Positions 23,647-25,844 of a stretch of 64,000 nt of DNA are shown piece by piece. Source of the DNA: Bdellovibrio bacteriovorus (lineage in GTDB: Bacteria > Bdellovibrionota > Bdellovibrionia > Bdellovibrionales > Bdellovibrionaceae); contig NZ_LUKD01000008.1 in the NCBI RefSeq assembly GCF_001592745.1, forward strand, positions 195,833-259,832, given 5' to 3'. A program made the translations under genes and the position numbers. Under the pieces are notes generated by a model, which ran no database searches, was not told the DNA's origin, and was given only the letters and a program-made list of their open reading frames with translations. Position 1 is the stretch's first letter, and the number at the start of each line of letters is the position of its first letter.

Positions 23647-24384
23647 ATGAAAAAATGGGGCTTCGTATTCGCATCTGCTGTTCTTGTTCTGACAACTCAA
23701 AATTCTGTCGCCGCCGATTGGCAAGAGACGAATATTCAGTTTCTGCACTGGGATTCTTATAAAACTCCGACTGGAAAAGAACTTTCTCAAAGCGTGATCA
23801 CGTTAGAACACGCAAGCAGTTGGACCTATGGAAGCAATTTCTTTTTCATCGACATTTCAAATCCGGATACGGAAGATGAAACCAGTTTTTACGGCGAGAT
23901 TTCGCCGGGATTTAGTTTAAAAAAGATGGGGTTATTAGAGCTCAGTGAAGAGAGTGGACCTTCTGACGTTCTTTTGCAGCTTAACTACGAGTTCCCTCAA
24001 GGACCGGCGAAAAGAGCCGCGCTCGCGGGCGTGAATTTCGTGTGGAAAAATCTTGGTTTTGATTTTCTTTCAACCCAATTTCTATTTCGCGACACCTTGG
24101 GGTTGGACGGTCATACGGGCCAACTTACACTGGCGTGGTTGAAACGCTTTGGCAGCGAAGCATGGCCTTTGGAATTTAGTGGTTTTATCGACTGGGCGGG
24201 GGCCGAGGCCACCTCTCACGAAAATATTCACACGCAGCCGAATCTGCTTTTAGATTTCTCTCGCAAAACAGCACGCAAGGTTCCTTTAAAGCTCGGCATT
24301 GAATGGAAGTACTGGAAAAACAAATACGGTATCGACGGCCTTGAAGAAAGCGTTCCTCAGGCAAAGCTCGTCTGGATTTTTTAA
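23647..24384 (+). CDS. Tsx/OmpK-like outer-membrane channel protein
   Basis: About 245 residues. ATG at 23647 begins a signal peptide (KKWGFVFASAVLVLTTQNSVAA); an in-frame TTG at 23629 is less likely. The mature protein starts DWQETNIQFLHWDSY and continues TLEHASSWTYGSNFFFIDISNPD and SFYGEISPGFSLKKMG, the pattern of Tsx-type nucleoside-channel/OmpK barrels. It ends in the strand KLVWIF with a C-terminal Phe. No intrinsic terminator is evident before the convergent riboswitch RNA. Nucleoside or small-molecule uptake is the likely role by family; substrate not deducible. Confidence 0.78.
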   Translation: MKKWGFVFASAVLVLTTQNSVAADWQETNIQFLHWDSYKTPTGKELSQSVITLEHASSWTYGSNFFFIDISNPDTEDETSFYGEISPGFSLKKMGLLELSEESGPSDVLLQLNYEFPQGPAKRAALAGVNFVWKNLGFDFLSTQFLFRDTLGLDGHTGQLTLAWLKRFGSEAWPLEFSGFIDWAGAEATSHENIHTQPNLLLDFSRKTARKVPLKLGIEWKYWKNKYGIDGLEESVPQAKLVWIF

Positions 24385-24430
24385 TTCGGAATTTTAAAGA
24401 AGAAAAAGTGAAGTCCCCAAAAACAAAAGT

Positions 24431-24464
24431 GCCTGCGAGGAATCTTCAGTGATAACTCACAGGC
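24431..24464 (-). terminator. Intrinsic terminator of the riboswitch RNA
   Basis: Minus-strand stem GCCTGTGAG / CTCGCAGGC (9 bp with one G-U) followed by ACTTTTGTTTTT. It is 74 nt downstream of the aptamer and could be the regulated expression platform or a constitutive end. Confidence 0.8.
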
Positions 24465-24508
24465 TAAGGGGAATGAAACCAATCCTTGTATGTATTGATA
24501 CCTTCCAT
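24464..24508 (-). CDS. Possible 14-residue peptide between aptamer and terminator
   Basis: ATG at 24508 follows GAGGTG by 5 nt and encodes MEGINTYKDWFHSP, ending in TAG at the base of the terminator stem. It starts 31 nt after the aptamer's P1, where an expression platform is expected, and an AGGTGA-G-TCACCT hairpin sits between aptamer and ribosome-binding site. If real, c-di-GMP would control its translation. The case rests on position and ribosome-binding site alone. Confidence 0.35.
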   Translation of the reverse strand: MEGINTYKDWFHSP

Positions 24509-24538
24509 ATGCACACCTCTGATTCCTCAGGTGACTCA

Positions 24539-24624
24539 CCTTTGGCAGCTGGCTGGCGTGGACGAACCGACACCCCTCTAGCTTTGCGTCCCGCCGTTTC
24601 CGACGGTTTGCCTTGAGGCAAAGG
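24539..24624 (-). promoter_or_regulatory. Cyclic-di-GMP-I (GEMM-I) riboswitch aptamer
   Basis: Read on the minus strand: P1 strand CCTTTG (24624-24619), then AAGGCAAACC, a stem CCGTCG / CGGCGG closed by a GAAA tetraloop (24606-24591), the invariant GGGACGCAAAGC-type segment (24590-24581), a second stem region with a receptor-like AGCCAGCTGCC, and P1 return CAAAGG (24544-24539). This is the canonical two-stem GEMM-I layout. By alignment to the Vibrio Vc2 aptamer, the ligand-contacting G20 is G (plus-strand C at 24612) and C92 is C (24545), predicting c-di-GMP rather than the 3',3'-cGAMP preference of G20A variants. Confidence 0.93.
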
Positions 24625-24755
24625 AAGGATCTAAATCCTAACGAGTATAACCCTAGGAACCTCCTTATGAGTTATTCGATAGATCCAACCAGTTCATCGT
24701 TTTTTATAGAGGCCTGAACCCGGAACCTCTGCGTAGTAATCCTGGTGACGCCTCG

Positions 24756-24800
24756 TCACTTCGGTGGTTCATCATGATGATCGTGAATACGGTTTTTCAT
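24756..24800 (-). CDS. Possible 14-residue leader peptide upstream of the aptamer
   Basis: ATG at 24800 lies 5 nt after a near-perfect Shine-Dalgarno (TAAGGAGGA, 24814-24806) and encodes MKNRIHDHHDEPPK before TGA. The strength and spacing of the ribosome-binding site are far better than chance for an RNA considered non-coding. The stop is immediately followed by a GTGACG/CGTCAC hairpin. The His/Asp-rich middle could bind metal, but translation itself is unproven. Confidence 0.45.
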   Translation of the reverse strand: MKNRIHDHHDEPPK

Positions 24801-24879
24801 CTGTGTCCTCCTTAGCTGGCCCTAAAGCATTCACTTACTCAGAGGTAAGTCTCACGAGCCATCTGGTTTCAACTCTTTT

Positions 24880-24909
24880 AGGATAGCTCGACCAAAGTTT
24901 TATTTTCAA
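24880..24909 (-). promoter_or_regulatory. Candidate promoter for the riboswitch RNA
   Basis: Minus-strand TTGAAA (24909-24904) and TATCCT (24885-24880) separated by 18 bp; both boxes are four or five of six to the sigma-70 consensus. A start near 24873 is implied. Proposed by eye only. Confidence 0.4.
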
Positions 24910-25049: not shown

Positions 25050-25844
25050 TTAAGGCAGGATTTCGCGGATGTTGTTCGCGATGGACATGAATTCTTGAGC
25101 TTCCGCACCGTTGCTGTTGGCTTCAACGATAGGGATGCCAGCTTCACACGCAAGACCTACTGAAGGATTGAAGGGAACGGCTCCCAATTTTTTCATTCCT
25201 TTGGCGTGAGCGTAAGTGTCCATTTCTCCCTTAGGGAAAAGTTGGATTTTTTCACCATTCGCTGGATTGATCATGTAGGCCATGTTTTCAACCATGCCCA
25301 GCAAAGGCACGCCCACACGCTCAAACATATCGACGGCTTTTTTCACATCGAGCAAGGCCACGTTCTGCGGTGTAGAAACCACGACCGCACCACTGACCGG
25401 AACTTTTTGTGCTAATGTTAGTTGGATATCGCCAGTGCCCGGAGGAAGATCCACGACCAGGTAATCAAGTTCGCCCCAGTTCACATCGCGTAGGAATTGA
25501 TCCATGGCTTTAAAGAGCATGGGACCACGCCATACGACAGCCGCATTTTCATCAACTAAAAAGCCGATGCTCATAAGTTTGATGCCATAACGAGTGATTG
25601 GCTCAAGTTGATTCGTTTCAGGATTAATTTGTGGTTTTTGTCCTAAGCTACCTAACATGCGAGGAATACTTGGACCGTAGATATCGGCATCCAAAAGACC
25701 GACACGGCTCTTTTTACCCAAGGCCATAGCCAAGTTAGTGGCGACGGTGCTCTTACCAACTCCACCCTTGCCTGAAGATACGGCAATAATATGTTTCACT
25801 CCGGGAATGGGGGTCTGTTTCTCGAACGGATTTGGTGCAGCCAT
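25050..25844 (-). CDS. mrp: Mrp/ApbC-type P-loop ATPase lacking the Fe-S CxxC
   Basis: 264 residues. Deviant Walker A SGKGGVGKS (24-32), LLDADIYGPSIPRMLG (50-65), VVWRGPMLFKAMDQFL, and Walker B-like DYLVVDLPPGTGDIQLTL identify the Mrp/NBP35 family of Fe-S carrier ATPases. The N-terminal MIP18/DUF59 domain of longer Mrp proteins is absent. At the place where the family has NMSYFxCPHCG, this protein reads NMAYMINPANG: both Cys are replaced by Asn (residues 193 and 196). Cluster bridging at the dimer interface by the standard ligands is therefore impossible, though ATPase function looks intact. Divergent from the J-domain-like gene. Confidence 0.9.
   Translation of the reverse strand: MAAPNPFEKQTPIPGVKHIIAVSSGKGGVGKSTVATNLAMALGKKSRVGLLDADIYGPSIPRMLGSLGQKPQINPETNQLEPITRYGIKLMSIGFLVDENAAVVWRGPMLFKAMDQFLRDVNWGELDYLVVDLPPGTGDIQLTLAQKVPVSGAVVVSTPQNVALLDVKKAVDMFERVGVPLLGMVENMAYMINPANGEKIQLFPKGEMDTYAHAKGMKKLGAVPFNPSVGLACEAGIPIVEANSNGAEAQEFMSIANNIREILP

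Follow-up and report, generated by a model that had tools for sequence, protein, structure and literature searches.

Conserved micro-ORFs on both sides of the c-di-GMP-I aptamer at the predicted merRNA locus of Bdellovibrio

The window analysed here, a 64,000-nucleotide stretch of Bdellovibrio bacteriovorus DNA, carries on its minus strand a c-di-GMP-I (GEMM-I) aptamer at 24541–24622. The Rfam RF01051 covariance model matched this aptamer with 60.6 bits (gathering score 35; E = 2.2e-9) at all 87 model positions, and it was the sole RF01051 match when the whole genome was searched. The G residue assigned as the counterpart of G20 in the Vc2 structure was kept in 56 of 56 family aptamers as GG before C/T, pointing to the c-di-GMP rather than the cGAMP type. 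Promoter-like boxes TTGAAA (−35) and TATCCT (−10) with a spacing of 18 were located by motif scan at 24880–24909 on the same strand and were kept in the genus alignment; promoter-like pairs occurred at 2 sites on the stretch compared to 0.7 expected. A terminator-like stem followed by a T run at 24464–24419 was seen in the fold prediction and in the genus alignment, yet was missing from a simple terminator scan. The predicted transcript spans 24419–24863 (minus strand), its 5′ end being set by alignment to the published end in strain HD100, and is predicted to be more stably folded than its shuffles (z = −2.7). On its 3′ side lies a convergent gene for a DUF5020 protein (23650–24384, plus strand), and on its 5′ side a gene for an Mrp/NUBPL P-loop NTPase (25050–25844), which is on the same strand as the aptamer and has its own terminator-like hairpin. 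These features agree with the original prediction of a canonical GEMM-I aptamer with a G20 equivalent, its own promoter-like boxes, an intrinsic terminator and a convergent next gene.

The same prediction had likened the RNA to merRNA and suggested a synteny check against the mapped merRNA locus; the comparison with HD100 supported this identity. In that strain, merRNA was mapped to 1,073,741–1,074,185 of the minus strand as a 445-nt RNA (Karunker et al. 2013, PMC3627812), and the single aptamer of an HD100-like genome, at 1,073,868–1,073,951 (minus strand), falls inside these coordinates. In the HD100-like genome mrp is directly upstream of the aptamer on the same strand, and its Mrp product is 89% identical to that of the window. 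Of 21 same-genus loci, 12 showed the same arrangement, as did many order relatives; in a few relatives mrp is on the opposite side or strand, and in the remaining loci the fetched flank did not contain it. The published HD100 RNA resembles the window RNA in its position downstream of mrp, strand relation, length of ~445 nt, placement of the aptamer in the 3′ half, and terminator (PMC3627812). Judged from sequence, the mrp-adjacent place, the architecture and the HD100 coordinates all agree in marking the window locus as the ortholog of merRNA. The published HD100 5′ end lies ~17 bases past the conserved TATCCT, which is farther than usual for a −10 box, and the true start of HD100 merRNA may be ~10 bases upstream of the published end.

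Aptamers of this kind were present once per genome in 59 of 66 family genomes and in every one of the 20 genera counted; the other seven genomes, most of them fragmented or incomplete, yielded nothing above the cut-off even with relaxed limits. Elsewhere in the phylum, several loci of more distant families (L006, L014 and other f13/f17 loci) showed a c-di-GMP-I aptamer and a terminator-like hairpin directly upstream of queE, coding for 7-carboxy-7-deazaguanine synthase. The queE assignment came from NCBIfam for two loci, with partial sequences scoring below the curated cut-offs; a link of c-di-GMP to queuosine synthesis is possible in these loci.

merRNA has been published as a non-coding RNA lacking any conserved ORF behind its riboswitch (PMC3627812), and a non-classical role was inferred in 2013 because no such ORF had been found (PMC3627812). 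The original prediction likewise described the window RNA as having no downstream gene and nothing conventional to regulate. In contrast, comparison of 59 family loci revealed a micro-ORF, ORF-B, which begins 32 bases behind the aptamer and occupies 24464–24508 on the minus strand (ATGGAAGGTATCAATACATACAAGGATTGGTTTCATTCCCCTTAG, read from 24508 to 24464). It has 14 codons and a TAG stop that adjoins the terminator stem, and its predicted peptide is MEGINTYKDWFHSP. GAGGTG is located at Shine-Dalgarno (SD) distance from the ATG (24514–24519; duplex energy −9.6 for GAGGUG), and the SD duplex reached −5 kcal/mol or lower in 96% of family loci versus 12% of 1766 background ATGs. The corresponding peptide of the HD100-like genome is MEGTNTYKDWFHSP, and other family members carry MEVESSVTKVTQNYIMDWFHSP, MEGMFLSKIQDRFHSP, MERFYSP, MNSFFSEKYRFHSP, MLFNTIQKFHSP or MSLENRFHSP. 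Across the family the length ranged from 7 to 24 codons with a conserved C-terminus, D-W-F-H-S-P. The terminal FHSP-like motif was in frame in 53 of the 59 loci, six of these with a C-terminal extension. Among the exceptions, L028 has no ORF, the sole in-frame ATG of L046 is internal, and L068 is frame-shifted, so that these three could tell whether the ORF-B peptide is dispensable in some lineages; in L033, L035 and L073 the ORFs behind the aptamer end in other C-termini.

The frame of ORF-B was maintained despite the variable length. Measured from ATGGAA to the S-P codons, the spacing was a multiple of three in 46 of 48 loci, and of 11 distinct lengths 9 stayed in frame, whereas the lengths of four control intervals of the same RNA were mixed modulo 3. 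Reconstruction of length changes on a tree that used the RNA minus the variable part of ORF-B gave multiples of three for 15 of 17 changes in ORF-B, compared to 21 of 94 in the four control intervals (binomial 4.5e-6, Fisher 3.5e-7). Frame 0 of the variable part was free of stops; the two alternative frames had 11 and 9. Eight loci in which the ATG has shifted downstream of GGAAG still open an ORF, and six of the eight end in F-x-(S)-P. A column-shuffle test was positive as well, and we preferred the frame test for ORF-B because column shuffles are biased by clustered conserved codons. The terminal FHSP codons vary little, third positions included, and an RNA-level constraint therefore appears to act there too.

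An SD-led ORF behind the aptamer was found in 53 of 56 family loci versus 2 of 24 order relatives (f2, f26, f27), so we rejected the idea that a micro-ORF follows the aptamer throughout the order. When 84,980 species genomes were scanned with GATTGGTTTCATTCCCCYTA, 22 records were returned, 21 of which are titled Bdellovibrio, Pseudobdellovibrio, their families or order, and one only "bacterium"; the same scan of viral contigs gave no match. Three relatives of family f5 (L012, L029 and L092) carry a different SD-led micro-ORF behind the aptamer, overlapping the terminator stem and beginning MDITPIFRPPYPPP and MDTMPIFSPPTPPP in two of them and reading MGFNCCLHPPYSPQ up to the stop in the third.

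The 5′ part of the RNA, left unexplained in the original prediction, was found to hold a further micro-ORF along with conserved helices. ORF-A, at 24756–24800 on the minus strand, codes for the predicted peptide MKNRIHDHHDEPPK followed by a TGA stop, and its SD region AAGGAGGACACAG lies at 24801–24813, as judged from alignment and SD analysis. It was present in 21 of 21 same-genus loci, with MKRIHDHNDKAPK, MRRRKFDHRDKSPK and similar peptides in other genera. In HD100 and two relatives it is two codons shorter and still in frame, the peptide of the HD100-like genome being MRTHEHHDDELK. Among 20 distinct 14-codon versions, codon pairs with a single change were synonymous in 559 and non-synonymous in 346 cases, the alternative frames giving 67/818 and 150/715, and the BLOSUM similarity was unmatched by column shuffles (0 of 1000). 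Substitution pattern and similarity suggest that ORF-A evolves like a coding sequence.

Several RNA helices surround the aptamer and the ORFs. At the aptamer foot, CCUUCC (24623–24628) forms a long-range helix, P0, with GGAAGG (24501–24506), which overlaps codons 1–3 of ORF-B. At the varying position of P0 a standard pair was found in 27 of 27 distinct rows (CG 19, AT 5, TG 2, TA 1), and none of 2000 shuffles matched the observed pairing. In loci with a moved ORF-B start, CCUUCC pairs with the SD itself. The covarying P0 helix sits where the expression platform of a riboswitch would be expected. The ORF-B SD is contained in a hairpin, CACCUGA-GGAA-UCAGAGGUG (24514–24533), supported by alignment, and behind ORF-A there is a hairpin AGAGG...CCUCU (24708–24730) showing an A-U to C-G change in relatives. 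In addition, 24651–24666 holds an AAGGAGG box that resembles an SD but has no start codon; 54 of 56 family loci carry this box, 33–67 bases before the aptamer. The box is also present in many order relatives (f2/f27 loci), well beyond the loci carrying ORF-B. It may act as a competing partner of CCUUCC or of the CCCCUU located at the ORF-B end; its pairing with the aptamer foot was set aside, the box being invariant and the fold probabilities low in most species. Near the 5′ end, UUGAAACC (24863–24873) is complementary to GGUUUCA inside ORF-B in most same-genus loci; family-wide pairing of the two was dropped, the complement being mostly absent or short outside the genus. Folding of the switch region in 12 species gave no consistent two-state picture: ORF-B, its SD hairpin and P0 are conserved, and thermodynamic folding does not yield a consistent switch.

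Taken together, these results favor, with a probability of roughly 0.7, a reading of merRNA as a riboswitch mRNA that responds to c-di-GMP and encodes microproteins, rather than a purely non-coding sponge. Binding of c-di-GMP would shift the balance between P0 and the SD hairpin, and the helix shift would open or close ORF-B to ribosomes. What the RNA delivers in the attack phase, at the time of its massive expression, would be the ORF-B microprotein or else the translation process itself. Most simply read, the RNA is a classical riboswitch arrangement with a very small target. Like other c-di-GMP-I riboswitches (RF01051), merRNA has the aptamer fold, the specificity G and an SD-led ORF behind them; it differs from the usual ones in a presumed target of ~14 codons and in a terminator placed after the ORF instead of before it. 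Dual-function bacterial RNAs and leader-peptide RNAs also are small RNAs with a very short ORF, a likeness of architecture, whereas merRNA has a metabolite aptamer between two micro-ORFs. We found no report of micro-ORFs in merRNA in the open-licence literature. The original likening of the locus to merRNA is supported; its gene-less status is not, the small same-strand SD-led ORFs having been overlooked.

The 2013 proposal was that merRNA serves as a c-di-GMP reservoir, or sponge, its abundant aptamers binding c-di-GMP and giving it up on prey entry (PMC3627812), and its strictly non-coding form, with chance or vestigial ORFs, appears to us unlikely. It draws strength from the extreme attack-phase expression in HD100 (PMC3627812) and from the order relatives, which retain aptamer and terminator mostly without an SD-led ORF; an RNA-only role may therefore be ancestral. 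However, a sponge predicts no frame conservation, and the ORF-B frame was kept through 15 of 17 length changes, while the substitutions in ORF-A are of the coding type. The same RNA could serve both as a sponge and as a message. A sponge for CsrA instead, whose GGA motifs would titrate the protein under c-di-GMP gating, is very improbable, even though CsrA is encoded in the genome and some GGA motifs lie in hairpin loops (CUGA-GGAA-UCAG). GGA occurred 11 times versus 11.2 in dinucleotide shuffles and A(N)GGA 11 times versus 7.0 (sd 2.6), and several of the GGA sites are Shine-Dalgarno sequences; with no GGA excess over dinucleotide shuffles, a CsrB-type RNA was rejected.

If the conserved GGAUUGGUUUCAUUCCCCUUA acted solely at the RNA level, as a pairing or protein-binding site, the ORF-B frame would be incidental. 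Its nucleotides are near-invariant, it can pair with the AAGGAGG box in predicted folds, and GGUUUCA is complementary to UUGAAACC in most same-genus loci. This account leaves unexplained the in-frame length changes, the SD conservation and the moved starts that retain a motif-ending ORF, and outside the genus the 5′ complement is in most cases missing or short; we hold it to be quite unlikely. A leader-peptide device, in which ribosome arrest on W-F-H-S-P-stop or on ORF-A controls RNA folding, stability or termination and the peptides themselves have no function, would fit the concentration of conservation at the ORF-B C-terminus beside the stop codon and the contact of this stop with the terminator stem. 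A proline before the stop codon is known to slow termination. Nevertheless, no conventional gene follows the terminator within the window, and the device is on balance improbable, about on a par with the purely non-coding reservoir.

The reading as a riboswitch mRNA accounts for an ORF that escaped the earlier description of merRNA and became visible with 59 loci compared; the HD100 RNA had been described as non-coding (PMC3627812), whereas our analysis finds two conserved micro-ORFs, also in the HD100-like genome. Counter to a message, the RNA is massively transcribed in HD100 attack phase, at a level similar to all mRNA reads together (PMC3627812), which is unusual for an mRNA. Given this level and the ORF-less relatives, merRNA may have a further role as an RNA.

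No attack-phase transcript of the model predator has been reported at a higher level than merRNA, which has been presented as a rare gene-less riboswitch. Should it encode two conserved microproteins, the sponge model would need revision. In its fullest form, to which we give somewhat less than even odds, the most abundant attack-phase RNA of Bdellovibrio would be an mRNA gated by c-di-GMP and encoding two microproteins of ~14 residues that occur across the family, and the switch from attack to growth would act at least partly via these peptides or their translation, not via c-di-GMP storage. If this is true, merRNA would be a riboswitch with a target gene too small for annotation, and a warning for other "orphan" riboswitches.
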